Source of the DNA: Acinetobacter nosocomialis
Lineage (GTDB): Bacteria; Pseudomonadota; Gammaproteobacteria; Pseudomonadales; Moraxellaceae
Direction: 5' to 3'
DNA: 64,000 nt
Assembly (NCBI GenBank): GCA_025736915.1
Contig: CP107049.1
Location: 558,001-622,000 of the forward strand
A model generated the notes under the pieces. It made no database searches. It had not been told where the DNA came from and saw nothing but the letters and a program-made list of their open reading frames with translations. Below, piece by piece: positions 4,449 through 23,889 of this stretch. The position numbers were made by a program, and so were the translations under genes. Position 1 is the first letter of the stretch, and each line of letters begins with the position of its first letter.

Positions 4449-4461
4449 GTCATTTATATAG

Positions 4462-4486
4462 AAAGCTCCCTAAACGGGGGCTTTTT
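4462..4486 (+). terminator. Terminator after metI
   Basis: AAAGCTCCC / GGGGGCTTTTT stem with loop TAAAC and a T-run, just after the metI stop. Confidence 0.85.
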
Positions 4487-4594
4487 GTTTTTATAGTCTC
4501 CTGTTATTAAAAAGTTGAGTACATGGCTTAATGCCATTTTCTGTTATCATCAAAATTAATGGTTACTCTTTGGATTTGGTTTCAGGATAAAACA

Positions 4595-5685: not shown

Positions 5686-5889
5686 GTGAAAAAGGTTGTT
5701 AAAGCTAAAAATTTAATTGCGTTCCGTATTTGGTTAGAAAAATTAGGGTATTCGGTTAAAAACTTGGCCGATGGAAAAGGTTTCACTTTCAGTTTTAAAA
5801 AAGAGTATGGCTTAGTCACGTGTGATTTGGCTGGTAATGCCTTAGCGATGCAATTAGGTGAAGAGTTTGAGGATCACTTAAAAGCGTAA
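5686..5889 (+). CDS. Small basic protein of unknown function
   Basis: I do not recognise this 67-residue protein. It begins at a GTG with a near-perfect AAGGAG seven bases upstream, which is good evidence that it is translated. The first 20 residues are strongly basic (MKKVVKAKNLIAFRIW), the middle has a FTFSFKKEYG strand-like stretch, and the C-terminus is acidic. There is no signal peptide or membrane helix. It is monocistronic, between gloB and the dctA-type gene, so context gives no function. Regular codon use and the strong ribosome-binding site argue against a chance ORF. Confidence 0.75.
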   Translation: MKKVVKAKNLIAFRIWLEKLGYSVKNLADGKGFTFSFKKEYGLVTCDLAGNALAMQLGEEFEDHLKA

Positions 5890-6055
5890 GCTTGAGCTGT
5901 TTTGCATATACTATTTTCAGTATAGGCAACTTAAAAGTTCTGCTTTCAAAGTAGATCTATATGAGAGTTTGTGAAAATTTTATATTGGCCTCCCATAATT
6001 AAGCATTTACATACAAGATAGTTTTTTTTAAATTAAATTTTCGACTAGATAAAAT

Positions 6056-6107
6056 AAAACCTGTAGCATGGCGCCTCTCCCAAATTGCCAATTGCTACAG
6101 GTTTTTT
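6056..6107. terminator. Bidirectional terminator between small gene and dctA
   Basis: AAAACCTGTAGCA and TGCTACAGGTTTT form a 13-bp stem. T-runs follow on both strands, so it can stop the + strand small gene and the - strand dctA-type gene. Confidence 0.8.
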
Positions 6108-6131
6108 AGTTCGAATTAAAATTTTAAATAA

Positions 6132-7430: not shown

Positions 7431-7912
7431 TATCTAAATACCTGTTCGATGGGGATAAAAAAATAAAATATAAAGCGTGCACCACAAGCTGCTTTAAAGG
7501 AAGTGAAGCCATTGTAAAGAATAAAAAATACCCTGTGTTATAAATTTAGAAAATGTAAAATTTAAAAACCATGTATATTTTTGTATATAAAGTCTGTCTT
7601 TTTCTGCATTCTTTAAAATTAAAATTTAGAAAAAAACTTTAAAAATACACCTAACCACTTGTTTGTTATTTAATTAGTTCTATTAATCATCTCTTTATGA
7701 GCTTTTATCTTTTGTTTTTAATTCAACAAAAACATCATTTTTAAAATAAATGATTAAGACAATTTCATGTTTATTTTAAATTATGAGAATTTAGTTTTTA
7801 AATAATAAGAAATATTGATATATAGTTATTTAATAAAAACAAAAGCCTATTTGGTGAGCTATTTAAATAAGCTATTTTTTAGCAATAAAAATAGGAAGTT
7901 ACGCCTATTACT
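7431..7912. other. AT-rich interval between dctA and tetR-type gene
   Basis: About 480 bases without a gene. The left end holds the dctA leader; the right end holds weak inverted repeats (CCTATTT / AAATAGG, 7841-7894) that may end the tetR-type transcript on the - strand. I saw no sigma-54-type -24/-12 element in front of dctA, although such promoters are common for dctA elsewhere. Confidence 0.5.
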
Positions 7913-8473
7913 TTAAACAAATAGGCGTTTTAAAAGACCATGTACGTAATCTAGGCTTAATTCCTGATTGGTAAATAAAATCCGAAATAGCATAGGTGCG
8001 ATTACAGTCTCGATTATTTCTTGGTTCGGTATAGTGAACTCATTACGTAATTTTGCTCGATTTTGAATAATGTCGAGTTGTTGAATAATCAAGGTTTCAC
8101 ATTTACGCGCATTATTAGAATCCGAATTTGACGTATAGAGTACGTCTCGTAATAAATCTTGCCCAACTTCTGAAGCATATTCTTCAAAATATTGTTCAAC
8201 CCATGCTGTGATATCTCGTTCAAATGAACCTAAATCTTTGGGTTCCATATCTGGTTTGAGTTCATTTAAAGCTACATCTGAAAATAGCTGGTTGATATCC
8301 CCCCATCGACGATAAATGGTTGAAGGCGTTACTCCTGCTTGTGCAGCAAGCATTGGAATTGTAATTTGGCTTTGCTCGAAATCTTTTTGTAATTCTTTTA
8401 CAGCATTATGTACCGCAGTTTGTATTCTCTCGCTGCGACCACCAGGACGTAATCCAGTAACAACTTTTGCCAT
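7913..8473 (-). CDS. TetR/AcrR-family regulator
   Basis: A 186-residue TetR-type repressor. The N-terminal helix-turn-helix is clear (ITIPMLAAQAGVTPSTIYRRW, about residues 38-58); the C-terminal ligand domain is of the type seen with efflux regulators. It is divergent from the MFS gene at 8611, and the 137-base gap contains two almost identical 19-bp palindromes, the obvious operators. By analogy with such pairs it probably represses both itself and the transporter until an inducer binds. The inducer is unknown. Confidence 0.88.
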   Translation of the reverse strand: MAKVVTGLRPGGRSERIQTAVHNAVKELQKDFEQSQITIPMLAAQAGVTPSTIYRRWGDINQLFSDVALNELKPDMEPKDLGSFERDITAWVEQYFEEYASEVGQDLLRDVLYTSNSDSNNARKCETLIIQQLDIIQNRAKLRNEFTIPNQEIIETVIAPMLFRILFTNQELSLDYVHGLLKRLFV

Positions 8474-9852: not shown

Positions 9853-11004
9853 TTACTGGTCACGCCAGCGTTTTAAAAAACGTTTTACATACTTTTTAAA
9901 TGGCCAAGTAAACTGTTTTATAAAACTATTTGGAATTTTATAGCCAACTGTTCCATAAACACTTGCCAAATGATTCGGCATATATACAGTTTTAAATAAG
10001 ACATCATAAAGCGGAATAAAAGCAGCGTAATTTTTATCAATCGCAGGTTTTTCTGAAGAGTGATGCCAATGATGAAATTCTGGTGTTGCGATAAACCAAC
10101 GTAGATATGGAAATCGAAAACGTACATTGGAATGAATAAAAATAGCGTGAAATGAAATAAAAATTAAATAGGCAAAAACAGCAGAAGTATGAAACCCTAA
10201 AAGGAAAATTGGTAGGGTAGCAATAAAGCGAGTCATTAAAACTTCAACAACATGTAAACGGGAAGATGCTAGCCAATCCATATATTCAGTCGAATGATGA
10301 ATCGCATGAAAACGCCATAAAAAGTTAACTTCATGCATGGCTCGATGCAACCAATACACCGTAAAATCAACCACAATGAGCAATTCAATGAATTGCAGCC
10401 AAATCGGCTGAGCTTGAACATATGGTACAATTGGATTATCAGGCAAATGCGTAATCCAATATTGAATTGGCATAACCGTTAAGAAGCTAAATAGTTGAAT
10501 ACCAATATGGCTGACCATGAAATATTTCATATCGGTCACCCAGCCCACTCTTAAGATCTTTTGTTCAGGGTTTTTAGCAAAAAAGCCTTCAAGGGGTATA
10601 AAAATAAAAGCCAAGATGACTAGGGTAAGTACAAAATAATCAATGCCTGCATAAAATGGTACGCTTGGAATGACTGGAGCATGAATAACACCACAGCCTA
10701 ATACTGCTGCGATGAGTGCAAAGCATAAACCATAAAAGCCATATCGATTTTGTCGGATGATTGCACTAAATGCTCCAAAACCTGCGCTAATAATAATGCC
10801 TGTGATCAGTCCATAATAAAAAAGACTATAGTGCTTTGCATAAAGTGGACGTAACTCAGGAGTTGTCAGCACACTGGGAAACAAAAAACATAAAGCTCCA
10901 AATAAGCAAAGTAAGCTTAATGCCATGGATATAAAAGCACTAATTTTTCCTAAACCCGCATTAAGCTCTAAATTTTCAAATCTTGCTCTTAATTGATCGG
11001 TCAT
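9853..11004 (-). CDS. Sterol desaturase / fatty acid hydroxylase superfamily protein
   Basis: A 383-residue membrane protein with several N-terminal hydrophobic segments and then the di-iron histidine clusters of this superfamily: HRAMHE (about residues 220-225), HAIHHS (about 235-240) and HHWHHS (about 311-316). Members hydroxylate or desaturate lipids at the membrane using oxygen. The true substrate cannot be read from the sequence; many bacterial members are uncharacterised. Its start is clear and it is transcribed alone, with a terminator of the upstream gene in front of it. Confidence 0.85.
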   Translation of the reverse strand: MTDQLRARFENLELNAGLGKISAFISMALSLLCLFGALCFLFPSVLTTPELRPLYAKHYSLFYYGLITGIIISAGFGAFSAIIRQNRYGFYGLCFALIAAVLGCGVIHAPVIPSVPFYAGIDYFVLTLVILAFIFIPLEGFFAKNPEQKILRVGWVTDMKYFMVSHIGIQLFSFLTVMPIQYWITHLPDNPIVPYVQAQPIWLQFIELLIVVDFTVYWLHRAMHEVNFLWRFHAIHHSTEYMDWLASSRLHVVEVLMTRFIATLPIFLLGFHTSAVFAYLIFISFHAIFIHSNVRFRFPYLRWFIATPEFHHWHHSSEKPAIDKNYAAFIPLYDVLFKTVYMPNHLASVYGTVGYKIPNSFIKQFTWPFKKYVKRFLKRWRDQ

Positions 11005-11114
11005 AATTCATATCAACAGTTCTTATTCTCTATGCCGCGCATGCTAACAAAATTTAATTATTAATTGTAAAAAGAACCTTATTTAACTCAGACTAAAAAT
11101 AGATATATAAATAA

Positions 11115-11155
11115 AACTAACCAATCAACACAAAAACAGGATTAATTGGTTAGTT
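11115..11155 (-). terminator. Terminator after sorbosone-dehydrogenase-like gene
   Basis: Perfect 11-bp arms AACTAACCAAT / ATTGGTTAGTT; on the - strand the stem is followed by TTTTATTT. Confidence 0.75.
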
Positions 11156-11193
11156 ATTATAAATATTTATCTATTTCAGAACGTGGAAATAGG

Positions 11194-12543
11194 CTATTTA
11201 TTTTTATATGGAGTCTCATAGGTTGTTTCAGCAACAGGTGAAACACGCCAAACTGTATTACCAACATCATCTGCGACTAATAGTGCACCCGAAAAATCAA
11301 TTGCCACCCCCACTGGGCGCCCATAAGCCTTACCTTTATCACTGAGGAATCCAGTCAAAATATCTTGCGGTGGACCAGAAGGTTGACCACTTCTAAATGG
11401 TACAAAAATGACTTTATAACCACTGTGAGGCTTACGGTTCCAAGAACCATGTTGCCCGATAAATGCCCCACCTCTAAATTGTGGCATCAGTTCGGCTGCA
11501 TAAAATGTAAGACCTAAAGAAGCCGTATGGTTGCCTAGTGCATAGTCAGGTTTAATTGCACGAGCGACCATTTCTGGATTTTGTGGTTTGACTCGCACAT
11601 CTACATGTTGTCCATAGTAGCTATAAGGCCAGCCGTAAAAAGCGCCATCTTGAACTGAGGTCATATAATCAGGTACTAAGTCACTACCAATTTCATCGCG
11701 CTCATTAACCACCGTCCAGAGTTTTCCACTTTGCGGTTGCCAAGCCATACCATTTGGATTACGCAGTCCTGTTGCAAATGGACGTGACTGACCGCTTGCA
11801 ATATCAAACTCTGTAATTTGTGCACGACCTTTTTCTTGATCTAGGCCATTTTCAGCAACGTTACTGTTAGAACCAACGGTAATATAGAGCTTTGTACCTG
11901 CCGCGTTAGCAATCACATTTTTGGTCCAATGGTGATTTAAAGGACCGCCCGGTAAATCTAATACTTTGGTTCCACTGGCTGTGATTTGAGTTTCACCCTC
12001 TTGGTAAGGGAAACGCACCAGTGCATCTGTATTGGCGATATATAAGTTATTACCGACCAATGCCATACCAAATGGAGAATTTAAGTTTTGAAGAAATACC
12101 GTTTTCTGATCGGCAACTCCGTCTCCATTGGTGTCACGAAGTAAAGTAATACGGTTAGCACTCGGATGAGATGAGCCTGCCCGTCTCATCACAAACGTCA
12201 TGATTTTACCTTTAATGCCTTTACTGTCTTCGGGTTTAGGAGGAGCATCTGTTTCAGCAACTAACACATCACCATTTGGTAATACATAGAGCCAACGTGG
12301 GTGTTCAAGTCCTTTAGCAAATGCTTTTACTTTTAAGCCTTCTGCTGGAGTTGGCATAACACCACTTGGCCACCCTTGCGCGGGTGCTATATTTACGGTC
12401 GGTAATAAGCTTGATTTAGGTTCAGGTAACTTTGGGTCTGGACCATAACTTTCGGTAATCGGATATTGAGAGGATGAAGCACACCCTGTAACTAGAACTA
12501 CAACGGTTGTACCTAAAATCGGCAGTAAAAAACGTGTAAGCAT
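11194..12543 (-). CDS. Sorbosone-dehydrogenase-like PQQ-type beta-propeller lipoprotein
   Basis: A 449-residue exported protein with a lipobox (VLVTGCASS, Cys about residue 21). The mature part is a six-bladed propeller like the glucose/sorbosone dehydrogenases, with the repeated themes [17 protein letters not shown] (about 80-96) and [18 protein letters not shown] (about 260-277) and a calcium-loop-like DTNGDGVAD (about 138-146). Family members oxidise sugars with PQQ; many lipoprotein members are uncharacterised, so activity is inferred. GGAGATAAAGG before the ATG supports the start. It stands alone and has its own terminator. Confidence 0.83.
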
Positions 12544-12725
12544 CCTTTATCTCCATTTTTTATTTTTTCGCAATCAGCACAGGGTAATGCTTTAGAAGAT
12601 AGACTTATAGTTTATTTATTTAACTGTACTGATCATAACATGACATATTTTCAAATTTTTAATACATAACTACAGATTTTGTAGGCACTTAAATCGCTTT
12701 AGTTATTAACTACAAAAATTACAAA

Positions 12726-13145
12726 TTAAAACTTAGCATTAGGATTGTTGCATAAAGCACTTATAAAATCCTCTTTCTCCTTTGGGGAAATCATAATAGA
12801 TGTCATTCTTCCATTTTTCATATAGCTAATTTTGAGTCGATCTAACGATAGCGCTGGAGACGAAAGTGGATTATGAGTAGGTTCTATTTGGGTAATATCA
12901 TCAATATTAATTTTCCAACGGAAAACCAGACTCTTAATGACTAATGTACTATTTTCTACCACATAGTAAGTGCTAAAGATTGGGAACCAAATAACTACAA
13001 TGACTAAACTATAAATTATGAGATGCGAAAAATTGGTGCCCATAGAAGAATGATGAACTTCTTGATAAATTTTAAAAATAATATTGGCAGTGATCACAAC
13101 AAATATTAATAAAAGCCACCAATCAATTTTTGATCTAAATTTCAA
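12726..13145 (-). CDS. Two-helix membrane protein with bacterial PH-like domain
   Basis: This 139-residue protein has two hydrophobic helices near the N-terminus (about residues 10-27 and 42-60) followed by a soluble part with the pattern of the bPH/YyaB-type domain: YYVVENSTLVIKS (about 61-73), a VFRWKINIDDI segment and a SLDRLKISY strand. Such domains usually sit on the cytoplasmic face of the membrane and their function is generally unknown. It lies between two larger - strand genes with gaps of 68 and 180 bases, so it may be transcribed alone. Confidence 0.68.
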   Translation of the reverse strand: MKFRSKIDWWLLLIFVVITANIIFKIYQEVHHSSMGTNFSHLIIYSLVIVVIWFPIFSTYYVVENSTLVIKSLVFRWKINIDDITQIEPTHNPLSSPALSLDRLKISYMKNGRMTSIMISPKEKEDFISALCNNPNAKF

Positions 13146-13214
13146 AAGTTATCCTCCACGTCTAAATCTCATTTATAACGAGTATTTCTATATATTTTTT
13201 ATAAAATAACCGAA

Positions 13215-15047
13215 CTAAAAATTAGCTTTAAATGTTAATGATACAAAATCTCGATCATCTATGGTGCTAAATTCATTAGAACCAAAAAAGTTATTATAGG
13301 CAATCTCTGCTGTATATTTTTGCTGATAAGTCATAGATAACGCTGCACTTACACTCATTTGCCCTTCTTGAAAGTTTTGGCTATATCCATAAACATCATG
13401 TCTAAAACTAAGACTTGGCGTAATCACTGTAGAGGGTAAAATATCTTGATAATTTAATGCGCCACGTAATCGGTAACCAAATGACCATTCATTAAAAAAA
13501 CCATTTTTATTACAAAAGCGTTCATTTAAATTGTCTATTTCTGCATTGGTAAGATGAGCTGTACCATACGGCGTACATTTTAAGTCGCCTGTTTCAGGAT
13601 TATAAGCACCTGTTGAAAGCTCACTACGGCCAAATGCGCCTGTCCGGCCAAACCGATGATTACCAATATCTGCAATATGGTTTAAGGCAAATTCTGTAGA
13701 CCATGTCATCGAATTTGCACCCCAAATATTGAATATGCTATCAGTTGCTCCAACCGAAAATTGTGTTACCGGTAAGCGTACATATCCTTGAATATATTGA
13801 CCTAATTCAACAGTTTTTCCCGGCGGTGCAAATGGTGTTCCTTCCGATAGCACTTGAGCATAGACAATGTCTGTGCCATTTAATTGCAAAGGTTGATTAG
13901 GTTTGTGGGTTAACTCACTAAAAACTGTTGTTGTTCCAACTTTACCAGTCAGACTTAATCCAAACATTTTGATATCTTCAGGGTAGATAGAAAAATAACT
14001 TGCGGTATTAAAATGTTCAGGTCCTGCTGCTGTTACAGCCGTTCCATCAAAGTTTGCATTACGGCTATGGTAGTTCGCATAGTAAATAGCTAGCTCAGCA
14101 TTATTTAAACTTGGTAATGTCTGTTTTAAAGCAATACCATATTGGCCATTGTCCTTTGCTTTTCTACTTTCTGCACGTGGAATATAGGTACGTAAACGAA
14201 TTGCGGTATCCGATAATTTATCTCCACCTCCAGCAATTAAAACTGGACCTGCATTTTCGGGCACAAAGTCTGAAATCTCAAAGAAAGTTCCGTTACCATC
14301 AACAACTGAAGGTCTAAATTTAAATTGATAGAACCCTTCGATTTTCAAATTTTTATTAATGCTTGTGTTAAATGAAAATATTTCGGTTGGAATGATTCTT
14401 TCTTTTGCATCACCACCCGGTCGGTTAATTGCAGTAAAATCAAAGGCACTCACCGAATTTAAACCGTTTTGAAAAAACTGAGATTTCCCCCAATTTAATG
14501 TTTGTTTACCTAATTTGAAATTGATGCTTTTCCCACTGCCTAGTTCAAAATCTTTCCATATATAGGCATTCCATAAATCGATACCTTTGAACTTTGCAAG
14601 CCTTGGCCACGCTGAATCATTAAAGGGTTTAAAGTCTCCGTGTCCTGTCTCATAAGCATGGTCATACCAGTATTTAGTGCTAATGACCGCACCCTGCTGT
14701 TTTCCATTTAGCTTAACTTCAGTTATGCCTCTGATAATCTCTGAAATGGCATCATATTTACTAAAATTCATACGCCCATCATCACCATTTACATCAATGC
14801 TAGCGCCTTGTTTGCCTATTTTGTTTGCGTCAGGCCGATAAAGTAATGAAACGGATGGATCTTGCGTACTCCAACTGGCTCCTAAGCTTAATGTCGTTTT
14901 TGTATCGACCTTCCAGTCTTTATCAATATCAAAACTGGCTGCATTTGCTTTAGACATAAATAAAATTAGGCTTAATGAAACACCTATTTTTTGAATATAT
15001 AAAACGTGATTATTTCTTTGATTTAAATAGACGTAATGACCCATCAT
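13215..15047 (-). CDS. DUF1302 family outer-membrane-type protein
   Basis: A 610-residue protein with an N-terminal signal peptide (cleavage likely after MSKANA, about residue 36) and a beta-rich body ending in phenylalanine, SLTFKANF, as expected for an outer-membrane barrel. The opening SFDIDKDWKVDTKTTLSLG and the WGKSQFFQNGLNSV segment are typical of DUF1302. In pseudomonads DUF1302 genes are usually paired with a DUF1329 gene; no such partner is next to this one. The function of the family is not established; a role in handling hydrophobic substrates is often suggested. The hydrolase gene lies 98 bases upstream on the same strand. Confidence 0.82.
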   Translation of the reverse strand: MMGHYVYLNQRNNHVLYIQKIGVSLSLILFMSKANAASFDIDKDWKVDTKTTLSLGASWSTQDPSVSLLYRPDANKIGKQGASIDVNGDDGRMNFSKYDAISEIIRGITEVKLNGKQQGAVISTKYWYDHAYETGHGDFKPFNDSAWPRLAKFKGIDLWNAYIWKDFELGSGKSINFKLGKQTLNWGKSQFFQNGLNSVSAFDFTAINRPGGDAKERIIPTEIFSFNTSINKNLKIEGFYQFKFRPSVVDGNGTFFEISDFVPENAGPVLIAGGGDKLSDTAIRLRTYIPRAESRKAKDNGQYGIALKQTLPSLNNAELAIYYANYHSRNANFDGTAVTAAGPEHFNTASYFSIYPEDIKMFGLSLTGKVGTTTVFSELTHKPNQPLQLNGTDIVYAQVLSEGTPFAPPGKTVELGQYIQGYVRLPVTQFSVGATDSIFNIWGANSMTWSTEFALNHIADIGNHRFGRTGAFGRSELSTGAYNPETGDLKCTPYGTAHLTNAEIDNLNERFCNKNGFFNEWSFGYRLRGALNYQDILPSTVITPSLSFRHDVYGYSQNFQEGQMSVSAALSMTYQQKYTAEIAYNNFFGSNEFSTIDDRDFVSLTFKANF

Positions 15048-15145
15048 ATTATCTCCCTATAAATATGATTTTTCTTATTTATTGCTTATTACTCAAAGCC
15101 ATCCATTGGCTTTTAAATGGTTTACATAAGCAGGTATTTTTTGTA

Positions 15146-15751
15146 CTAGGCAGGTTGTTCGACCTGATCTAACTGTTGAATGAATTGTTCAGCTAAAGGC
15201 CAATAGCCAAAGCCAGATGCAGGGTTTAAATGTCCTACTTCACCTAAATTTACGAGTTGACTACCCCACTTTTCTGCCATTTCACTTACAGCTTCATAAC
15301 GAGCTAAATGGTCATTGGTGCTTGCAACTAAAATGCTGGGGAAAGGTAGTGTTTGATCTGGTAAAGGACTCCATCCTTCTTGATGAAGTACGGTTGGGCT
15401 TGGATAATTTTCTGGCCAGCTTTCGTTTAAGTCAGGTGGAGCCACAAGCAAAGCACCTTGAATTGGTCTTTGATATTTTGCAGCCCAGTGTGTTGTCATC
15501 AATACGCCTGCGCTGTGTGCAACCAAAATGACAGGCCCTTGTATTTGTTCGAGTTGTGCCTGAATAGCAGCAACTCTATTTTCACAATTGAGTTTGTTGG
15601 TTTGCACAGGAGGTACAGAACGAACCTTTGCTAGCTTTGTTTCTAAGATCGTTTGCCAATGCTCGGGAACATGATCGCGTAACCCCGGAATAATTAAAAT
15701 TGTTGCTTTGGTTTGTATTTTTTCCATTTCGACGCCTGTGAATTTTGCCAT
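15146..15751 (-). CDS. RBBP9/YdeN-family serine hydrolase
   Basis: A 201-residue alpha/beta hydrolase. The nucleophile motif is AHSAG with Ser80, and Asp147 (STNDHLA) and His174 (VGHLN) complete a plausible triad. The opening ILIIPGLRDHVPEHWQT is the family signature. These small hydrolases cleave esters, but natural substrates are mostly unknown. There is no signal peptide, so it is cytoplasmic. An operator-like direct repeat shared with the catabolic operon at 17-23.5 kb lies 73 bases upstream of its start, so it may belong to the same AraC-type regulon. Confidence 0.83.
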   Translation of the reverse strand: MAKFTGVEMEKIQTKATILIIPGLRDHVPEHWQTILETKLAKVRSVPPVQTNKLNCENRVAAIQAQLEQIQGPVILVAHSAGVLMTTHWAAKYQRPIQGALLVAPPDLNESWPENYPSPTVLHQEGWSPLPDQTLPFPSILVASTNDHLARYEAVSEMAEKWGSQLVNLGEVGHLNPASGFGYWPLAEQFIQQLDQVEQPA

Positions 15752-15823
15752 CTAGGATGCATAAGAATTTTTATAAAACTCCATTCACAATAAAGGCTCA
15801 TTTCAGTTAATGGTGTACATAAG

Positions 15824-15852
15824 GCGTCACGGACTTGTCATTTGACGACACA
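15824..15852. promoter_or_regulatory. Candidate AraC-type operator, copy 1
   Basis: CATTTGACGACACA (15839-15852) differs at one base from CATTTCACGACACA upstream of the catabolic operon. A second half-site, GCGTCA (15824-15829), lies exactly 21 bases before ACGACA (15845-15850), two helical turns, as AraC-type dimers like. It could control the hydrolase, the araC-type gene, or both. Identification is by pattern only. Confidence 0.5.
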
Positions 15853-16041
15853 TCTTTTTAAAATTTCGTAAATTAATTAAAATATTTTTTGTAATTACAA
15901 ATGAATCAAAAGAACAGTTTTAAAATTAAGTTGACATCACGATTAGGCTCTTAAATAAAAGCTTTTGTAATGCGAATATTTTAGTTATAACTAGATATGA
16001 GCTGTAAGGAATATGGCTGATTAAGAACAGGAGATAATAAA

Positions 16042-17052
16042 ATGGTGCCTCTTGCGCATACCGCCTCTTTAAAAAATTATTTGGCAGTTGCTCAGCAATT
16101 AGATCTAAATCCCTACCATTTATTATCACGTGTTGGGCTTAGCCAAACTCAATTGAATGATCTTAAACAACGTATTCCTGTCGATAAAGCCATTACCTTG
16201 CTTGAAGACTCAGCCGAGATGAGTAATTGCGATGTATTCGGTTTACATATGGCTGAGCAACGCGAAATCGCGGATTTTGGTGAACTGAGCTTATTATTAA
16301 GTTACCAATATACTTTGAGAGAAGCGCTGCAAACGATTGTTCGTTATAGGAATTTACTCAATAACTCACTTGAAATATATATAGAAGAAATTGACGATAC
16401 AGTTGTTATTCGAGAAGAAGTGGTGACAACAAATTGCGGATATAGCCGGCAAGCCACAGAACTTGCTTTAGGAATCACCCATCGTTTTTGTGCAGCACTC
16501 ATGATGCAAAAATGGCGACCGTTAAGTGTACACTTCACTCATAACCCGCCCAGTGATTTAACTTTGCATCGGCGGATTTTTGGCTGTGCGCTAGAGTTTG
16601 GTAGTGACTTTAATGGTATTGTTTGTACGGCGGCCGAACTTGATACAACAAACCCTCAAGCAAATCTGGCTATGGCCAACCATGCACAACGTTATTTAGA
16701 TATTTTGCAAAATAGCAATGAATCGACCATGATTTTTGATATTCGTAAAAGTATTTATCTTCTTTTGCCAATGGGTCGCGCTACGATTGATCAAGTCGCT
16801 CAAACACACGGTATGCACGTACGGACTTTACAGCGTCGATTAGAAGAAGCTCAGACGAGTTTTAGTGATTTAATGAATGAAGTACGCAAAGATCTCGTAT
16901 TTCGTTATTTAAAAAATCTAAATTATTCACTTGCTCAAGTATCTGATATTTTAGGTTACTCAATGCCGAGTTCTTTTACGCGTTGGTTCATTAGCCAATT
17001 TGGTATGTCACCGAATACGTGGCGTAGTCACAATAAAGCCCTGCTCAATTAA
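16042..17052 (+). CDS. AraC-family regulator with OruR-type N-terminal domain
   Basis: A 336-residue regulator: an N-terminal ligand/dimerisation domain of the OruR/ArgR-like 'arabinose-binding' type (about residues 15-200) and two C-terminal helix-turn-helices (ATIDQVAQTHGMHVRTLQRR and LAQVSDILGYSMPSSFTRWF, about 250-320). AGGAGA precedes the ATG. It is convergent with the seven-gene catabolic operon at 17145-23550, and the same direct-repeat motif occurs upstream of that operon's first gene and in the gap before this gene, so it is the likely activator. The inducer is unknown, probably the operon substrate. Confidence 0.87.
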   Translation: MVPLAHTASLKNYLAVAQQLDLNPYHLLSRVGLSQTQLNDLKQRIPVDKAITLLEDSAEMSNCDVFGLHMAEQREIADFGELSLLLSYQYTLREALQTIVRYRNLLNNSLEIYIEEIDDTVVIREEVVTTNCGYSRQATELALGITHRFCAALMMQKWRPLSVHFTHNPPSDLTLHRRIFGCALEFGSDFNGIVCTAAELDTTNPQANLAMANHAQRYLDILQNSNESTMIFDIRKSIYLLLPMGRATIDQVAQTHGMHVRTLQRRLEEAQTSFSDLMNEVRKDLVFRYLKNLNYSLAQVSDILGYSMPSSFTRWFISQFGMSPNTWRSHNKALLN

Positions 17053-17092
17053 TTTCTCTTTATGTGAAGCCCAATGAAGTCGTTTAAAATAT

Positions 17093-17130
17093 AAGGAAGC
17101 TGGGGAACTATTCCATAACTTCCTTAAAAA
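17093..17130. terminator. Terminator between araC-type gene and operon
   Basis: AAGGAAG (17093-17099) and CTTCCTT (17119-17125) with an inner GGAA/TTCC pairing, followed by A/T-rich DNA on both sides. It separates the convergent regulator and operon. Confidence 0.6.
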
Positions 17131-17144
17131 TTTAATTTTTAAAA

Positions 17145-18155
17145 TTAAAACCACAAGTGCATAAGCCCAAGAACCAATACCACTAAAAATATGCTTTCGC
17201 CGATCATTAAAAGAATCGGTTTAATGCCAACTGATGCTAATTCTTTTAACTGAGTTTTCATACCTAAAGCACTTATTGCGATGACTAAAAACCAGCGTGA
17301 TAAATCATTGATTCCATTTTGAACCATCGCTGGTACCCATCCTATACTGTTAATACAAGCGAGTAGTAGAAAGCCAACGGCAAACCAAGGCAGCAATGGC
17401 GGTCGTTCCCCCGTTGAATCTGCACCTTGCATACGGGTAATCATGGCTGCACAAACAATTACTGGAAGCAGCATTGCCACACGCATGAGTTTAACTACAG
17501 TCGCCGTATCACCCGTTTGGGTAGACATGCTATAACCAGCGCCGACCACTTGCGCCACATCATGAATCGTAGCACCAAGAAACACACCAGCCGCTTGTGG
17601 CGATAACTCTAGCCACTTCGCAATCATCGGATAGACAATCATTGCAAATGTTGAAAGTGCCGACACGCCAATCACGGTAAACAAGGTCGCTTTTTCTTTT
17701 TGCGGATGATTTGGAAAAGCAGCCGATAGTGCCAGTGCGGCTGAAGCACCACAGATTGCCGTTGATCCACCAGTGAGCATGCCAAATAGTTTTTGGAAGC
17801 CTAAAATTTTAGCAGCAATAACAGAAACGGCAATTGTGACAATAACCAGAGTAATGACTAACGCAACAGGCTGCCAACCTAGTGCGGTGATTTGACCCAA
17901 AGTAATACGCATTCCGAGTAAGGCAATACCCATCCGAAGCACACTACGTGCGGTAAACTCGATACCTGCCTTACATTTACTTTCAGCAGCTAAAAAATTC
18001 ACGCTCATGCCGAGCAGTAGCGCAAATAGCATGACTGGTGCGCCATAATGCTCTGATAAAAAACAGGCAGCCGCAGCAACGACCGAACTGACCACAAAGC
18101 CTGGTGCTAATTCTCTTGTACGCTGGGAAAAATTTCTCAAAACTAAACTACTCAT
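17145..18155 (-). CDS. YeiH/UPF0324 family membrane protein (putative sulfate/sulfite exporter)
   Basis: A 336-residue inner-membrane protein with about ten helices and the family segments RMGIALLGMRI, GGSTAICGASA and FLGATIHDVAQVVGAG. The family is annotated as putative sulfate exporter, although direct proof is scarce. I start at MSSLVLRNF (18155) because GGGGAA lies six bases upstream; the frame is open four codons further. Its start overlaps the Rieske gene stop by eight bases. As the last gene of an operon with a TauD-type enzyme, removal of sulfite or sulfate is an attractive but unproven role. Confidence 0.84.
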   Translation of the reverse strand: MSSLVLRNFSQRTRELAPGFVVSSVVAAAACFLSEHYGAPVMLFALLLGMSVNFLAAESKCKAGIEFTARSVLRMGIALLGMRITLGQITALGWQPVALVITLVIVTIAVSVIAAKILGFQKLFGMLTGGSTAICGASAALALSAAFPNHPQKEKATLFTVIGVSALSTFAMIVYPMIAKWLELSPQAAGVFLGATIHDVAQVVGAGYSMSTQTGDTATVVKLMRVAMLLPVIVCAAMITRMQGADSTGERPPLLPWFAVGFLLLACINSIGWVPAMVQNGINDLSRWFLVIAISALGMKTQLKELASVGIKPILLMIGESIFLVVLVLGLMHLWF

Positions 18156-18474
18156 GATTTTCCCCATAACCGATCATAATAAATACCTTGTCCTCGATCA
18201 CTTCTACGGGATAGGTTGCAACTTTGAGTTGAGCAGAATTAACTAAACAGCCATTTGTTAAATCAAAGCGTAAACCATGGGCACAACACTGAATCACTCG
18301 TCCTTCTAAACGTCCACTAAATAGCGATGCGCCCTGATGAGGACAGCTGTCATCGATTGCATACAACTGAGTCGCAACGTTAAATAGTGCGAGAGTTTTA
18401 TCTCCAATTTTTAAAAAAGCCCGCTCACCTGAATTCGGTATTTTTTCAAAAGGCACTTCAAATCGGTTGGTCAT
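18148..18474 (-). CDS. Rieske [2Fe-2S] ferredoxin-type protein
   Basis: A 108-residue soluble Rieske protein with both cluster motifs, CPHQGA (about residues 43-48) and CCAHGLRFD (about 62-70), each giving one Cys and one His ligand. It resembles ferredoxin components of ring-hydroxylating systems and small NirD-like proteins. No oxygenase alpha subunit or ferredoxin reductase is in the window, so it may feed electrons to another operon enzyme or act alone. It overlaps the gene before by ATGA and the gene after by eight bases, so it is part of the operon. Confidence 0.87.
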   Translation of the reverse strand: MTNRFEVPFEKIPNSGERAFLKIGDKTLALFNVATQLYAIDDSCPHQGASLFSGRLEGRVIQCCAHGLRFDLTNGCLVNSAQLKVATYPVEVIEDKVFIMIGYGENHE

Positions 18475-19127
18475 ATCAACTCTCCTTGTGCCAGCATTGC
18501 CTCTTGCATCGCTTGATAAAGCGCATCTGCTGATTGCGCACCCACTAAGGCAGAAGCCCGATCAAAAATAAAGTAAGGCACACCATTACCTCCTGTACTT
18601 GCAGAGATAAAATCTTGATGATCTTGAATAAACAAATCTTTGATAAGCTCAGGTGAGAAGCCACAACGTTTCGTGATTTTGTATAAAGTGGTGGTATTTC
18701 CGATGTCTAACCCATCATAAAAATATGCAGCAAAGAGTTGTTCTAACAACGCATTGCACTGCTCAGGAGTACCTATTTTTAAAGCTTTATCAAATAAGCG
18801 ATGAGCTTTAGCGGTATTTGGCATCCGTTTAATCTGTTCAAAATCGATCTTAAGCCCAACTTTATGTGCAGCTTTATTGACCTGTTCTTGTCTCATACGG
18901 ACTGCGGTCAAACTACCTAACCGTTTCAAATAAAACGTTTGAAACGGTACACCTTCAACAGCTAAATCAGGTATAAGCTGAACACCTCGCCAATGCACAA
19001 TAACTTTGACTTTGGGGTGAAGCTGATAAAACCTATTTATAGCGATCAGTAACTGACGTTTCCCGATCAAACACCAAGGACAAATAAAGTCAAAAAATAC
19101 ATCAATGTGTAATTGCCGAATCATCAT
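18471..19127 (-). CDS. DsbA-family FrnE / 2-hydroxychromene-2-carboxylate isomerase-like protein
   Basis: A 218-residue thioredoxin-fold protein without a signal peptide. The opening IDVFFDFICPWCLIGKRQL carries a CPWC active site (about residues 17-20), and GNGVPYFIFD (about 178-187) is the cis-proline loop. This group includes FrnE-type disulfide isomerases and glutathione-dependent 2-hydroxychromene-2-carboxylate isomerases of aromatic breakdown. The CPWC motif favours redox chemistry or the FrnE branch. It overlaps both neighbours by four bases, so its product is made together with the Rieske protein and the permease. Confidence 0.84.
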   Translation of the reverse strand: MMIRQLHIDVFFDFICPWCLIGKRQLLIAINRFYQLHPKVKVIVHWRGVQLIPDLAVEGVPFQTFYLKRLGSLTAVRMRQEQVNKAAHKVGLKIDFEQIKRMPNTAKAHRLFDKALKIGTPEQCNALLEQLFAAYFYDGLDIGNTTTLYKITKRCGFSPELIKDLFIQDHQDFISASTGGNGVPYFIFDRASALVGAQSADALYQAMQEAMLAQGELI

Positions 19128-20473
19128 TTGTTATTCATCCCGCATTTTTGTATTTGGTTACCTGAATGATTTTTAAGCTCAGTTATTCCTTGCTGCTCAA
19201 AGCGTGAGATATCTTTGTGATAATGGCGTTTGGCATAAAAAAATACGGCTGCTGCTGCAATACTGACCAATGGCATAAGTTGAAATGCGCTATGTAAACC
19301 AATCACATCAGATACTTTGCCAACGACTAAAGGACCAAGCGCTAAACCAAGAAAATTGTTAGCCAGAGTAAGTGTTGCAAATGCAGAGCCATGAACTGAG
19401 TTATGTGTGAGATTGGCCACCATGGCACTAGATGGCCCATTGGTTCCTAGGGCAATAAACATTCCGAGGCAGATGATAAGTAACTGATTCCGTCCCGCAG
19501 GCATAGCAAAAGCAATGAATAAAAGAACACAACCGAACAAGCAGTATGTAATCGCTAAACTGACCTTACGATCTGGACAGTTACGGCCCAAATAATCACA
19601 CAACATACCGCATAGAATTGTGCCTACTGCACTACATAGCAAAATGACCGCTGCCATCACACCTGCCTTGTCAGTACTCATGCCGTAATAGCGATTGAGA
19701 TAACTCGGCATCCAGACAATTACTGTACCACCCACAAATAATTGCAGACCACTACCAATGTAGGTGGCAATGACTGAACGACTTGAATATAAAGTTTTTA
19801 AAGGGCTTTTAATGTGCTGGGTTTTACTACGAATTTTATTTTGAGGTGCTGCGTTTATTCTGTTTTCTTTCACTAAAATTGGATATAGAAAGGCCAAAAT
19901 GAGACCAAATAAAGCAATGCCTCCAAAAGCCCAACGCCAACCGAAATGCTGTGCGAGTACACCACCTAAAGCCACACCCAAAAACGAGCCAAATACGCCA
20001 CCCGCCATAAAAGCACTGGCGAGTGTTGCACGCATTTCTCGTGGGAAAACAGCCACAACCACCGCGATTCCCACGCTGCCATAAGCAGCTTCACCCACAC
20101 CAACCATAAAACGAGCAATAAACATTTGCTCATAATTTTCAGCCAGTGCACATCCTAAAGTCGCCAAACTCCATAAAGCCGCCATAATGGCCAAGCTTTT
20201 AACTCTTCCAAAACGGTCTGCCATTAAAGACAAAGGCAGAGTCAATAAACCCACCATTAAGGCGACAATGCCACTGAGTAAACCTAACTGACTATCGCTG
20301 AGCAACCACTCATTTTTAAGTAAAGGAAAGACTGCGTTTAAGACTTGTCGAGACATGTAATCTGAAATGAGCAAACCAAATGTCAAAGCAAAAACAAGCC
20401 ATGCATAACGACGAGGTATACTGATTGACGTATCAACATCGCTCATCTGATCTGAATACTGATGTGCATTCAT
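19124..20473 (-). CDS. MFS transporter of the catabolic operon
   Basis: A 449-residue permease with twelve hydrophobic segments and the loop motif MADRFGRVKS (about residues 83-92), resembling the spinster-like and aromatic or organic acid MFS carriers. An unusually strong Shine-Dalgarno, AAGGAGG, precedes the ATG, which fixes the start. It is in the middle of a catabolic operon, so it most likely imports the operon substrate. A perfect inverted repeat lies in the 118-base gap before it. The substrate cannot be told from sequence. Confidence 0.86.
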   Translation of the reverse strand: MNAHQYSDQMSDVDTSISIPRRYAWLVFALTFGLLISDYMSRQVLNAVFPLLKNEWLLSDSQLGLLSGIVALMVGLLTLPLSLMADRFGRVKSLAIMAALWSLATLGCALAENYEQMFIARFMVGVGEAAYGSVGIAVVVAVFPREMRATLASAFMAGGVFGSFLGVALGGVLAQHFGWRWAFGGIALFGLILAFLYPILVKENRINAAPQNKIRSKTQHIKSPLKTLYSSRSVIATYIGSGLQLFVGGTVIVWMPSYLNRYYGMSTDKAGVMAAVILLCSAVGTILCGMLCDYLGRNCPDRKVSLAITYCLFGCVLLFIAFAMPAGRNQLLIICLGMFIALGTNGPSSAMVANLTHNSVHGSAFATLTLANNFLGLALGPLVVGKVSDVIGLHSAFQLMPLVSIAAAAVFFYAKRHYHKDISRFEQQGITELKNHSGNQIQKCGMNNK

Positions 20474-20562
20474 ACGACCTCCTTGTATTTTTTATAATTT
20501 CTATTTAGCTAGTGCAGCAACTCACTTTTAAAAAACAAAGCGGATAAGCTGCACTACATTTG

Positions 20563-20584
20563 AGGCCTAAATTCCGTTAGGCCT
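20563..20584 (-). repeat. Operon-internal hairpin
   Basis: AGGCCTAA and TTAGGCCT are perfect 8-bp arms around six bases, directly after the stop codon of the BKACE gene. There is no T-run on the - strand, so it is not a standard terminator. It could protect the 3' end of the upstream mRNA or lower expression of the downstream genes. Confidence 0.55.
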
Positions 20585-20591
20585 TGTCACA

Positions 20592-21644
20592 TTAATTACG
20601 CTGTGGCACGCCCTTTTGCCCTGCTTTACGATTGGGTGCCATACCATTTGCGATTAGAGTTTCTTCAATACTGTTGTATTGCACCCCAATACGATAAATT
20701 TCACGGGCTTCTTTTCCTGAGGCAATTTCACGGCCTAGTTCATGGGCAATCCGAACGGTTTGCTTAATTTGCTCTACAGATGAAAAACGACGTCCGTGAT
20801 GATCAATGATCGTGTCTTCATTACCAACACGGGCATGTAAACCCATTGCCATCGACATGGTGTTAAAAGGCAACACATTTTTGAGCAGAGACTCAGATGT
20901 CAAAGTACATCCATCGGGTACGCGATGAATAAAATTAAAGAAATTAAATGGGTTTGGACCATCAAAACCGCCACCGATTCCAATCCAAGTTAAGTTTAAC
21001 GGCCCCATATACAACCCTTTACGCACCATACGTTCTAGCGTCTCAAGTCCATGCATACCCGTTAACTGAAAGTGCGGTTGAATATTGTTTTTACATAAGC
21101 GCTTAATATGTTCGGCAACCCATGCTGGCCCTGCTGGCACGGTCATTTCTGCATATGCAGCCTGAGTCGCTGGATGTGCCAATGATGTCCCTTCTAAATA
21201 TTCTGGATAGAGCAATTCCATAATATTCATTTGTGTAGTGTTAATTGCCACCGTAACCTGATCGGGCTTTGGTGTAAGTTCAGCCAACATATGTCGGGTG
21301 TCATCACTTAACCATAGAGCTGCCTCACCTTCACTTTCGGGTGCAAATGAAATCGAACCACCTACCTGAATAATCATGTCAGGCACAGCTTCACGAACAC
21401 CTGCAATAAGTTCATTAAATTTTGACAAGCGTTTAGAGCCTTTACCATCAAGCTCACGGACATGTAAATGCAGCACCGTCGCGCCCGCTTCATAACACTC
21501 AACAGCTTTTTGTATTTGCTCATCCATGGTCACTGGAATATCTTCAGGAAAGTCTTCTGGCATCCATTCGGGTCCATACGGTGCAACCGTGATTACTACT
21601 TTTTCCATATTTTCTGGGTGCAATGAGTCGTCAAAGAATTGCAT
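20592..21644 (-). CDS. BKACE-family beta-keto acid cleavage enzyme
   Basis: Enzymes of this family (Kce and relatives, DUF849) use acetyl-CoA to cleave a beta-keto acid, giving acetoacetate and a new acyl-CoA. Metal ligands are visible in HLHVR (about residues 59-63), and the VTVAINTTQMN, GIGGGFDGPN and VGNEDTI segments fit. I start at MQFFDDSLHP (350 residues), six bases after AGGAG. The family covers many substrates (3-keto-5-aminohexanoate, dehydrocarnitine and others), so the common annotation '3-keto-5-aminohexanoate cleavage' should not be taken literally here. It follows tauD by 59 bases. Confidence 0.87.
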   Translation of the reverse strand: MQFFDDSLHPENMEKVVITVAPYGPEWMPEDFPEDIPVTMDEQIQKAVECYEAGATVLHLHVRELDGKGSKRLSKFNELIAGVREAVPDMIIQVGGSISFAPESEGEAALWLSDDTRHMLAELTPKPDQVTVAINTTQMNIMELLYPEYLEGTSLAHPATQAAYAEMTVPAGPAWVAEHIKRLCKNNIQPHFQLTGMHGLETLERMVRKGLYMGPLNLTWIGIGGGFDGPNPFNFFNFIHRVPDGCTLTSESLLKNVLPFNTMSMAMGLHARVGNEDTIIDHHGRRFSSVEQIKQTVRIAHELGREIASGKEAREIYRIGVQYNSIEETLIANGMAPNRKAGQKGVPQRN

Positions 21645-21703
21645 GTGCATCTCCTTATGTATTTTTAGAATTTTCAATTAGATAAAATTATTAACCTATA
21701 GAT

Positions 21704-22552
21704 TTAATAGGTTGCGTCACCAATAATGCCGGCCCGCTCCATTTTTCGGTGGCAAGGTGGATAATCCATGACTGCATAATGTTGTGTGCTGCGGTTATCC
21801 CAAATGGCAATGCTGTTAGGCTTCCAACGCCAACGCACTTGAAACTCTGGAATATAGGCTTGAGAAATTAAGTAACGTAGTAGTTCAGCTGCGCCCGGAT
21901 TGGCATCTTGTCCAAATCTGACGCGCTCTTTGGTGTGATAGTTACTGAAGTGAGTCGTAAACGCGTTGACGTATAAAATTTTCTCGCCCGTTTCAGGATG
22001 AGTACGTACCACTGGATGCTCAGCATCGGGAAACTTTGCTTTTAAGTCCAAGCGTTTTTCAAGTGGCATAGCAGCACCAAAACTCGCCTCTATGCTGTGG
22101 TAGGCACGTAAGTCAGCAATCTTATTTTTAATATCGTCGGGTAAAGACGCATAGGCCATGACCATATTGGTCCACATAGTATCGCCACCCACTGGTGGGC
22201 ATTCAACACAGTGCAACACACATCCCATCGGTGGAACCTTGCGCCAGCTTGCATCACTGTGCCAAGCATTTTCATAACGATCAACAGGACTTTCAGGATG
22301 TTTATAAATCTGCACCAAACCCGGATGATCAGGATGGCTGCCTACCGCAGGATGATCTTCGAGCTGTCCAAATTTTTCTGCAAATGCGACATGATCCTGA
22401 CGGGTTAAATGCTGATCTCGTAAAAACAACACACGGTGTTTAAGTAGTTGTGTGCGAATTTCAGCAAATAATCCATCATCATAAATCGCATCAGCGAGTT
22501 TGACGCCACTGAGCTCTGCACCAATATTGCAAGTTAACTGTTCAATTTGCAT
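21704..22552 (-). CDS. TauD/TfdA-family 2-oxoglutarate-dependent dioxygenase
   Basis: A 282-residue non-haem iron(II) dioxygenase. The facial triad is His98-x-Asp100 (WHSDASW) and His258 (TQHYAVMDY), with Arg273 or Arg269 for 2-oxoglutarate. The family hydroxylates taurine, other sulfonates, phenoxyacids, carnitine precursors and more. I start at MQIEQLTC because GAAGGGAT lies just upstream; the frame is open five codons further to a TTG. The gene begins 11 bases after the end of the oxidoreductase gene. With a YeiH-type exporter in the same operon, sulfonate attack is one hypothesis. Confidence 0.87.
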   Translation of the reverse strand: MQIEQLTCNIGAELSGVKLADAIYDDGLFAEIRTQLLKHRVLFLRDQHLTRQDHVAFAEKFGQLEDHPAVGSHPDHPGLVQIYKHPESPVDRYENAWHSDASWRKVPPMGCVLHCVECPPVGGDTMWTNMVMAYASLPDDIKNKIADLRAYHSIEASFGAAMPLEKRLDLKAKFPDAEHPVVRTHPETGEKILYVNAFTTHFSNYHTKERVRFGQDANPGAAELLRYLISQAYIPEFQVRWRWKPNSIAIWDNRSTQHYAVMDYPPCHRKMERAGIIGDATY

Positions 22553-22563
22553 AAGAAATCCCT

Positions 22564-23550
22564 TCAAATTACAAAGATTGATGAACCTATTGTTTTACGT
22601 GCTTCCAAATCACGATGAGCTTGTACTGCATCCTTTAGCTCATAGCGCTGATTAATTTCAATTTTGATTCGTCCATGCCGAACATGATCAAATAATTCAT
22701 TTGCAAGTTCTTTCTTCTCGGTTGGATCTGCAATGTAATCTGCCAAAGCTGGACGTGTGACAAACAATGAACCTTTCACGGCAAGTAATACCGGATCAAA
22801 AGCAGGAATTGGACCAGACGCTGTTCCTACGCAGACCAACAAACCACGGCGTTTGAGAGAGTCTAATGAGCTCATGAAAGTGGCTTGGCCAACACTATCG
22901 AAAACGACATTTACACCAACGCCACCTGTTAACTCACGTACACGTTCGGCAACATTTTCATAGCTGTAGTTAATGACATGATCACAACCATGAGCTCGCG
23001 CTACGGCAGCTTTTTCTTCTGAAGATGTGGTACCGATAACAGTCAAGCCAAGTAATTTAGCCCATTGAGAAACGATCAGCCCAACACCACCAGCGGCTGC
23101 ATGTAATAAAATTGAATCGCCCGCTTTAAAGTCATAAATGCGGCGCATCAGATAAGCAGCGGTCAGCCCTCTCATGGTCATGGCAGCCGCTGTTTCACAA
23201 GAAATTTCTTCGGGTAATTTAATTAAAGCATTTGCTGGAATTAGACGGTGGGTGCTATATGCACCTAAGGTATTTAAAAAACCTGTATAAGTAACTCGAT
23301 CACCAACTTTAAGCTGAGTCACTCCTTCGCCTAAAGCTTCAATGACACCTGAAGCTTCGACGCCCATGCCATTAGGCATTGGAATTTGATAGGTTCCATT
23401 ACGAAAATATGTATCGGCATAATTTAGACCGACTGCCACATGACGTAGGCGTACTTCTCCAGCTTTTGGATCTCCTACTTCTACATCTTCATAGCGCATT
23501 ACTTCTGGCGTTCCTGTTCCATAGAAACGTATAGCTTTCGTCAACGTCAT
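22564..23550 (-). CDS. QorA-like NADPH:quinone oxidoreductase
   Basis: A 328-residue zinc-free MDR protein, first gene of the operon. A Rossmann motif LLHAAAGGVGLIVSQWAK is at about residues 145-162, preceded by the GMGVEASGVIEALGEGV substrate-domain segment. The cysteines that bind zinc in alcohol dehydrogenases are missing, as in quinone oxidoreductases. It probably reduces an enone or quinone-like intermediate of the pathway with NADPH. An AraC-type direct repeat lies about 85-117 bases upstream of its start, which marks the probable operon promoter. Confidence 0.86.
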   Translation of the reverse strand: MTLTKAIRFYGTGTPEVMRYEDVEVGDPKAGEVRLRHVAVGLNYADTYFRNGTYQIPMPNGMGVEASGVIEALGEGVTQLKVGDRVTYTGFLNTLGAYSTHRLIPANALIKLPEEISCETAAAMTMRGLTAAYLMRRIYDFKAGDSILLHAAAGGVGLIVSQWAKLLGLTVIGTTSSEEKAAVARAHGCDHVINYSYENVAERVRELTGGVGVNVVFDSVGQATFMSSLDSLKRRGLLVCVGTASGPIPAFDPVLLAVKGSLFVTRPALADYIADPTEKKELANELFDHVRHGRIKIEINQRYELKDAVQAHRDLEARKTIGSSIFVI

Positions 23551-23889
23551 GTCCTATTCCATATTTTGGTTTTTTATTGAGTGCCTATAAAAGCAATAAC
23601 CAAAATTACAACAGTTAGGATATGGGCCACTTTACATTTCACGACACAAGCTTAACGTTTAATGACAGCCGAACTTTACTAAAGTTGGTTTTATATTTAT
23701 CTGACGAAATAAGGATTAAGTTCATACCTATCAAAAATTAAAATAATTCTAAATATTTACGATTTGTTTTTTTAAGTTAGCTTTTTAAATGCACTATTTT
23801 TTAATTAAAAATTCCTTTACCCTGACCTACTTTAACTATTTTTAACTTTCACGTTAGCTCAGGCATTTAATTCAGTTCATTTATTTCTT
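23551..23889. other. Divergent regulatory interval between operon and yddG-like gene
   Basis: 338 bases without a gene. The operator-like motif at 23635-23667 is the main signal on the operon side; the yddG side is AT-rich with no distinct box I can name. Confidence 0.5.
23635..23667. promoter_or_regulatory. Candidate AraC-type operator, copy 2 (operon promoter)
   Basis: CATTTCACGACACA (23635-23648) matches copy 1 at 13 of 14 bases. A second half-site ATGACA (23662-23667) lies exactly 21 bases from ACGACA (23641-23646). Read on the operon strand the halves are TGTCAT and TGTCGT in direct repeat, as expected for an AraC-family activator. Confidence 0.55.

Follow-up and report, generated by a model that had tools for sequence, protein, structure and literature searches.

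Which pathway is encoded by a run of seven genes in Acinetobacter nosocomialis that pairs a TauD-type dioxygenase with a BKACE-type enzyme? The genes lie on the minus strand at positions 17145-23550 of the window, the whole stretch of 64,000 nucleotides that was analysed (assembly GCA_025736915.1, contig CP107049.1, positions 558,001 to 622,000). An earlier note, made from the sequence alone, had proposed that they form a catabolic operon that cleaves a beta-keto acid with acetyl-CoA and exports an anion. We find that this operon is probably part of a regulon of ten genes, which also takes in the genes for an AraC-family regulator, a serine hydrolase and a DUF1302 protein. Judging from sequence and genome context, we favour with moderate confidence the reading that the regulon, under control of the AraC protein, serves the uptake and oxidation of an organic acid or ester that is anionic and perhaps hydrophobic. 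The route probably passes through a beta-keto acid and ends in acetoacetate and an acyl-CoA able to lead to propionyl-CoA.

The seven genes read qor-tauD-BKACE-MFS-dsbA-rieske-yeiH (operon 1), and Pfam and NCBIfam profiles agree with the families originally assigned to them. These are a QorA-type (zinc-free MDR) NADPH:quinone/enone oxidoreductase (qor, the first gene, 22564..23550), a TauD/TfdA-family Fe(II)/2-oxoglutarate dioxygenase (21704..22567), a BKACE-family (DUF849) enzyme (20592..21644), an MFS permease (19124..20473), a DsbA/FrnE-like thioredoxin-fold protein (18471..19127), a Rieske [2Fe-2S] ferredoxin-like protein (18148..18474) and a YeiH/Cons_hypoth698-family exporter (17145..18167), all on the minus strand. 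With the longest open starts, the intergenic gaps are -4, 26, 118, -4, -4 and -20 bases. The 4-base overlaps and small gaps described earlier were found as such, and the 8-base overlap appears if yeiH starts at its second ATG, which turns the -20 gap into -8. The tauD gene has a TTG start, with an alternative ATG at 22552. For BKACE, the ATG at 21644, preceded by AAGGAG, is a likelier start than the TTG at 21677, and the gap to tauD is then 59 bases.

The gene neighbourhood was compared across genomes, as had been suggested, in 80 named relatives (24 Acinetobacter and 56 Pseudomonas). These are the best 80 of 405 BKACE matches and therefore lean to close relatives. All seven genes were colinear on one strand and in the same order in 80/80, which argues that the arrangement is not due to chance. 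The context thus supports the catabolic operon that had been claimed, although the unit had been drawn too small, without the regulator, the serine hydrolase and the DUF1302 protein, and the operator described below had escaped notice. The AraC-family gene (16042..17052, plus strand; Arabinose_bd and HTH_18 domains, PF12625 and PF12833) lies between operon 1 and a second minus-strand operon, in which the gene for the serine hydrolase (15146..15751; PF06821, 152 bits; presumably of the RBBP9/YdeN type) is followed by that for the DUF1302 protein (13215..15047; PF06980, 472 bits). By strict tblastn the AraC gene was nearby in 73 of the 80 relatives and the hydrolase gene in 46, some contigs stopping before the latter, and a looser blastp search placed the hydrolase in more. 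The DUF1302 gene adjoins the hydrolase gene in many relatives. As these three genes are adjacent in many relatives, and as an operator-like site precedes both operons, we count them as members of the unit.

This site is a direct repeat with a 21-bp period, of the kind used by AraC-type proteins. One copy (23635..23667, minus strand) stands 84 bp before qor and the other (15818..15850, minus strand) 66 bp before the hydrolase gene, in the divergent gap to araC, both with 0 mismatches. An equivalent site with no more than 3 mismatches was found 71-97 bp before qor at 80/80 loci and 58-73 bp before the hydrolase gene in 46/46, the relatives in which that gene was placed. The pattern was derived from both sites of the window and from those of a few relatives, and its presence there is therefore partly by construction; the independent tests are its rarity in the genome and its position before CoA ligase genes. 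The 3.87-Mb genome gave three matches at up to 3 mismatches; the only two perfect ones are both in the window, and the third, with 3 mismatches, lies elsewhere. A reversed control pattern matched once in this genome, at none of the positions upstream of qor or the hydrolase gene, and nowhere in all 1.61 Mb of the named loci, and the consensus repeat matched twice in the window versus 0 in 100 window shuffles. Among 31 other Acinetobacter genomes, each with a BKACE match, every one had at least 2 sites; the total was 88 against 12 for the reversed pattern, so that single sites with 3 mismatches can be due to chance. The site was weaker, with 2-3 mismatches, in Novosphingobium L114 and in genome G449. 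We take it as likely that the AraC protein controls both operons through this shared operator-like site.

A BKACE enzyme is expected to release acetoacetate as a by-product, which ScoA and ScoB activate. Both were encoded near the operon at 10 of the 80 named loci, and also at L155. The scoAB genes of six Acinetobacter loci lie on the other strand, some 4 kb upstream of BKACE, and those of four Pseudomonas loci follow downstream on the operon's own strand. Streptomyces L122 encodes an acetoacetate-CoA ligase (771 bits, cut-off 521), of which Streptomyces L130 has a 70% identical homologue. It is this genome context, acetoacetate-handling genes beside the operon in some lineages, that lends indirect support to the predicted cleavage with acetyl-CoA. 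As separate observations, a polyhydroxyalkanoate (PHA) synthase-like gene was seen beside scoAB near the operon in L083, L097 and L108 (Pseudomonas); that of L108 scored 699.8 bits against the class II model, below the cut-off of 855.4.

A link to propionyl-CoA genes was not visible from the sequence available to the earlier note. In 6 of 27 extended Acinetobacter regions, some of whose contigs end early, the DUF1302 gene is followed by a CoA ligase gene and then prpB, with prpC too in five; in the sixth the contig ends in prpB. PrpB and PrpC of L188 pass the methylisocitrate-lyase and methylcitrate-synthase cut-offs, and in Caballeronia grimmiae prpB-prpC-acnD-prpF stands directly downstream of the operon. 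The CoA ligase (>60% identical) was present in the loci of 12 genomes, duplicates under two locus identifiers with equal coordinates being counted once. An operator-like site with 2-4 mismatches lay 38-53 bp upstream of it in 7, a site with 5 mismatches in one and no site in four. Among the six prpB-bearing regions, a site with 2-4 mismatches precedes the ligase gene in L175, L179, L188 and L190, and none does in L176 and L191. The operator, the added hydrolase and the presence of scoAB and prpBC nearby together restrict the search for a substrate to sources of acetoacetate and propionyl-CoA. In the window genome itself a single prpB-prpC-acnD locus is present, away from the operon. A second prpBC pair was found elsewhere in four compared genomes (G038, G050, G122 and G136), with 85.1-99.5% nucleotide identity, which suggests duplication, with recent gene conversion in some of the four.

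How might the ten proteins act together? The substrate would be imported by the DUF1302 protein, with a putative outer-membrane role, and by the MFS permease (PF07690, 184 bits; TIGR00893, 150 bits, below the cut-off of 395), which is likely to take up organic anions. The serine hydrolase would open an ester or lactone; its residues S80, D147 and H174, a probable catalytic triad by fold family, are invariant in 9/9 aligned sequences. The TauD-type enzyme would oxidise the carbon adjoining the anchored anion, and the QorA-type enzyme would perform an NADPH-linked enone reduction or a dehydrogenation, with a beta-keto acid as the result; the order in which the hydrolase, TauD and Qor would act is provisional. 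The Qor product reaches 354.1 bits for NF008024 NADPH:quinone reductase, above the NCBIfam cut-off of 348, and among solved structures 329.5 bits for 9kuj and 269 bits for the 2-haloacrylate reductase 1wly. The BKACE-type enzyme would then convert the beta-keto acid and acetyl-CoA to acetoacetate and a shortened acyl-CoA, in some hosts ending as propionyl-CoA, ScoAB or acetoacetate-CoA ligase would return acetoacetate to acetyl-CoA, and YeiH would export a toxic anion, most simply sulfite. The operon further encodes the DsbA/FrnE-like protein, with a CPWC motif (PF01323, 74 bits; FrnE structure 5cnw, 59.6 bits), and the Rieske protein (PF00355, 55.6 bits), which matches ferredoxin chains of Rieske oxygenases and falls under the cut-offs of named ferredoxin families.

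No evidence supports any of the candidate substrates considered, namely penicillic acid, furanones, valerate, betaines or plant hormones. In the portions consulted of a study of indole and skatole degradation by Acinetobacter piscicola (PMC11434297), a gene named tauD appears in the transcriptome tables but could not be linked to the operon, and this study was not used.

The TauD-type dioxygenase (PF02668, 220 bits) consists of the TauD domain only, residues 8-279 of 287; its closest solved relative is PDB 5vn6 (526 bits), and it is 65-80% identical to relatives on Burkholderiales plasmids. Residues H103, D105, H263 and R274, which we take to be the HxD...H iron site and the 2-oxoglutarate arginine of the superfamily, are invariant in 13/13 aligned sequences, as are His72 and Arg278, presumably the anion site. 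The idea of a plain taurine-type enzyme was not supported: the score against the taurine dioxygenase model NF007104 is 241 bits, below the NCBIfam cut-off of 313, and the position of Asn95 in E. coli TauD, which we assume contacts the taurine amine, is Glu99 in 12/12 operon-type sequences. Standard taurine use was rejected for the operon enzyme because of this score and because the window genome has a second TauD (C1:3583940) with the usual Asn, the comparison with the cut-off having covered the operon copy.

In one special form of the favoured reading, TauD would attack a carbon that carries a sulfonate or sulfate ester, and YeiH would export the sulfite or sulfate released. If that carbon were beta to a carboxylate, a single step would give the beta-keto acid that passes on to BKACE. 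We regard this as possible rather than probable. A sulfonate substrate would explain both the TauD fold, with its invariant H72 and R278, and the exporter (PF03601, 239.6 bits, above the gathering threshold), whose family hints at sulfite. YeiH was present at all 80 gamma-proteobacterial loci, in Novosphingobium, G449 and G379, and as a distant form in Rhodococcus (33%) and Streptomyces L130 (31%, on the other strand). Export of an anion, as first proposed, fits this family context and the tie of Salmonella YeiH to sulfite stress resistance in the available part of a 2026 paper (PMC12880088). However, the viewed regions of Caballeronia, Tsukamurella, Azoarcus and Streptomyces NBC_00147 showed no YeiH close to the operon, and no sulfite dehydrogenase was annotated in the plasmid regions viewed, although no dedicated search was made. 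Moreover, YeiH (165.4 bits for TIGR00698, cut-off 232.6) and TauD both score under the curated cut-offs of named sub-families, and PlaO1, which is not known as a sulfonate enzyme, aligns with the same His/Arg pair. The complete scheme must be considered improbable, namely that direct oxidative desulfonation of a beta-sulfonated or beta-sulfated carboxylic acid gives the beta-keto acid, with TauD freeing sulfite, YeiH exporting it and a Tyr-less BKACE yielding propionyl-CoA and acetoacetate, all within one AraC regulon that spans two operons in Acinetobacter and Pseudomonas and has core relatives in Burkholderiales, sphingomonads and actinobacteria.

A second form, to which we give the same limited weight as to the sulfonate route, is a CoA-free beta-oxidation resembling that of carnitine, in which TauD beta-hydroxylates a carboxylic acid, the dehydrogenase step falls to the QorA-type enzyme and the resulting beta-keto acid is cleaved by BKACE. 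Gamma-butyrobetaine hydroxylase, which hydroxylates at the beta carbon, is the model for the first step. That enzyme has an extra N-terminal domain, and none of this type was found by Pfam in the operon TauD. TauD-type enzymes typically attack the carbon adjoining the anchored anion, and QorA-type enzymes act as reductases rather than as alcohol dehydrogenases; by Pfam, none of the ten scanned window genes is a 3-hydroxyacid dehydrogenase. A related but different BKACE cluster lies within the same region at L177, where genes for an SDR dehydrogenase, a double carboxymuconolactone-decarboxylase-like protein and an MFS protein (5399-8446) stand beside those for another BKACE (59%) and another DUF1302 protein; the pairing of BKACE with an SDR speaks for this form. 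So does its final logic, which matches that of carnitine and deoxyribonate catabolism as described in the parts seen of two papers (PMC12482172, PMC6365646).

Does the BKACE-type enzyme cleave its substrate at all? Its family assignment is clear (PF05853, 204 bits, gathering cut-off 24.8), and the best fold match of a weak AlphaFold model (ten sequences; mean predicted local distance difference test score 69.8), which served for this match only, was Kce 2y7f. Sites were mapped on Kce 2y7d, with residue numbers carried over by HMMER alignments. H59, H61, R272, E276 and D277 are invariant in 111/111 aligned sequences; the zinc ligands His-x-His and Glu are thus kept, as are the Arg and Asp (R272 and D277) that we presume to act in the active site. 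Roles presumed for Kce Glu14 and Glu143 were not used as proof. The catalytic Tyr of Kce, Tyr145, is Thr195 in the window enzyme, and this position is T in 89, Y in 11, A in 7, S in 2 and G in 2 of the 111 sequences; the Glu143 position is Gln in 109. None of the named functions tried passed its NCBIfam cut-off: Kce, 3-oxoadipate and 3,5-dioxohexanoate BKACEs gave 128.3/382, 93/350 and 86.6/430 bits. According to the excerpt available of a 2026 preprint (PMC12871164), the catalytic Tyr is present in all BKACEs, and BsfD, with Phe in its place and a longer loop, does different chemistry.

Because the Tyr is mostly absent and Gln occupies the Glu143 position, the reaction may differ from the canonical one. 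The enzyme might acetylate or decarboxylate its substrate as BsfD does, without retro-Claisen cleavage, and acetoacetate would then not be a product. The loop after the third strand is also longer than usual and has an invariant Arg-His, resembling the insertion of about 20 residues with Arg91 in the published excerpt on BsfD. On the other side stand the acetoacetate-handling genes that some gamma-proteobacteria and Streptomyces carry next to the operon, and L155, an operon variant with Tyr that retains the same neighbours and operator. Since this Tyr-bearing variant shares both, the change does not appear to separate two pathways and is better seen as variation within one. We consider an altered reaction a real rival, if a slightly less probable one than the two preceding forms. 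Detoxification of enones, quinones or thiol-reactive compounds, with Qor, the DsbA-like protein, the Rieske protein (all redox proteins by family) and the exporter as a stress module rather than a growth pathway, is the least probable of all, given that the permease, hydrolase and DUF1302 or TonB receptors, and in some genomes CoA ligases, ScoAB and prpBC, are encoded close by or follow the same operator.

Beyond the close relatives, the gene set was found to be widespread. BKACE occurred in 32/149 Acinetobacter genomes, the window's included (in G125 as a 234-residue piece only), and TauD at E<=1e-90 in 14/398 Pseudomonadota genomes, the window's again included. The BKACE proteins of A. calcoaceticus, A. 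seifertii and A. lactucae are 98-99% identical to that of the window. A core of Qor, TauD, BKACE, MFS and hydrolase genes, usually with AraC, is carried on plasmids of Novosphingobium, Rhodococcus, Tsukamurella, Caballeronia, Streptomyces and Azoarcus, in some cases rearranged or with parts missing; AraC was not seen in Azoarcus. Some records retain less: C. metallidurans L118 has recognisable TauD and BKACE genes only, and Ensifer L123 a distant BKACE alone.

Some of these regions hold further genes of related families. Three Pseudomonas loci (L083, L108 and L109) have a second TauD (73-74%) and BKACE (62-63%) directly before qor, and this pair has its own operator-like site with 1-2 mismatches. 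Beside the BKACE cluster of L164 (G449), at 12100-17600, are genes for AraC, two TauDs, a 2,4'-dihydroxyacetophenone dioxygenase/Dke1-like cupin and an alpha/beta hydrolase. An operator-like site with 3 mismatches precedes the first of the two TauD genes, and plasmids of Paraburkholderia terrae and Pseudomonas aeruginosa H15 carry sets that resemble this second cluster but lack BKACE. In Caballeronia sp. Sq4a (L121), the annotation places a SulP-family inorganic anion transporter at 3618-5324, some 3.7 kb ahead of BKACE. In the window, the DUF1302 gene is followed on the same strand (9853-13145) by three genes shared with the nearest relatives only, two of which we take to be sterol-desaturase-like and sorbosone-dehydrogenase-like (449 residues) and the third of which is a small membrane gene.

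Several results weigh against the pathway that we favour, a ten-gene regulon leading to acetoacetate and propionyl-CoA. Besides the replaced Tyr and the regions in which YeiH was not seen, a search allowing up to 4 mismatches gave no operator in Caballeronia L112 and L121 or in the actinobacterial loci L115, L116, L122 and L130. Most relatives have no scoAB (present at 10/80 loci) or prp genes (6/27 regions) beside the operon, and recognised prp genes were present in only 1 of 12 plasmid loci searched, that of C. grimmiae. Genome G082, a near relative with the operon, gave no PrpC match at E<=1e-60 and so cannot remove propionyl-CoA through this methylcitrate synthase, which weighs against an obligatory methylcitrate role.

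Soil bacteria, among them Acinetobacter and Pseudomonas, can probably use an organic acid or ester by means of this regulon. Public annotation describes the operon genes by family only, for example as TauD/TfdA family dioxygenase or 3-keto-5-aminohexanoate cleavage protein. The Tyr-less variant also makes a good test of how the BKACE enzyme family works.

In agreement with the earlier note, our search of the literature turned up no published pathway with the same genes; it covered open-licence papers, and a description in a subscription journal is possible. Compared with taurine dioxygenase TauD, the operon enzyme shares the fold family, the iron ligands and the anion-site His and Arg, and differs in its score and in the Glu that replaces the amine-contacting Asn. 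BsfD of flavophos biosynthesis is likewise a DUF849 protein with no catalytic Tyr and a longer loop after strand 3 (PMC12871164, seen in excerpt), a likeness by description and not residue by residue; it belongs to a biosynthetic phosphonate cluster and has Phe, not Thr, at the Tyr site. The oxidative deoxyribonate pathway (SDR, BKACE, lactonase, MFS) resembles the regulon in combining BKACE with MFS transporters and a hydrolase, and its acetoacetate needs re-activation; in the portion of the paper available it has an SDR, neither TauD nor QorA is described, and the product is glyceryl-CoA, not propionyl-CoA (PMC6365646). In carnitine catabolism (carnitine dehydrogenase, BKACE, DhcAB) BKACE likewise acts on a beta-keto acid, converting 3-dehydrocarnitine to betainyl-CoA in Pseudomonas aeruginosa according to the part seen of that report (PMC12482172). 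Neither the carnitine dehydrogenase nor the DhcAB family is among our ten genes, and the regulon adds TauD, QorA, hydrolase, DsbA-like, Rieske and YeiH proteins. As far as these partial accounts allow the analogy, the end of the pathway would work like carnitine and deoxyribonate catabolism, whereas the upstream enzymes differ.

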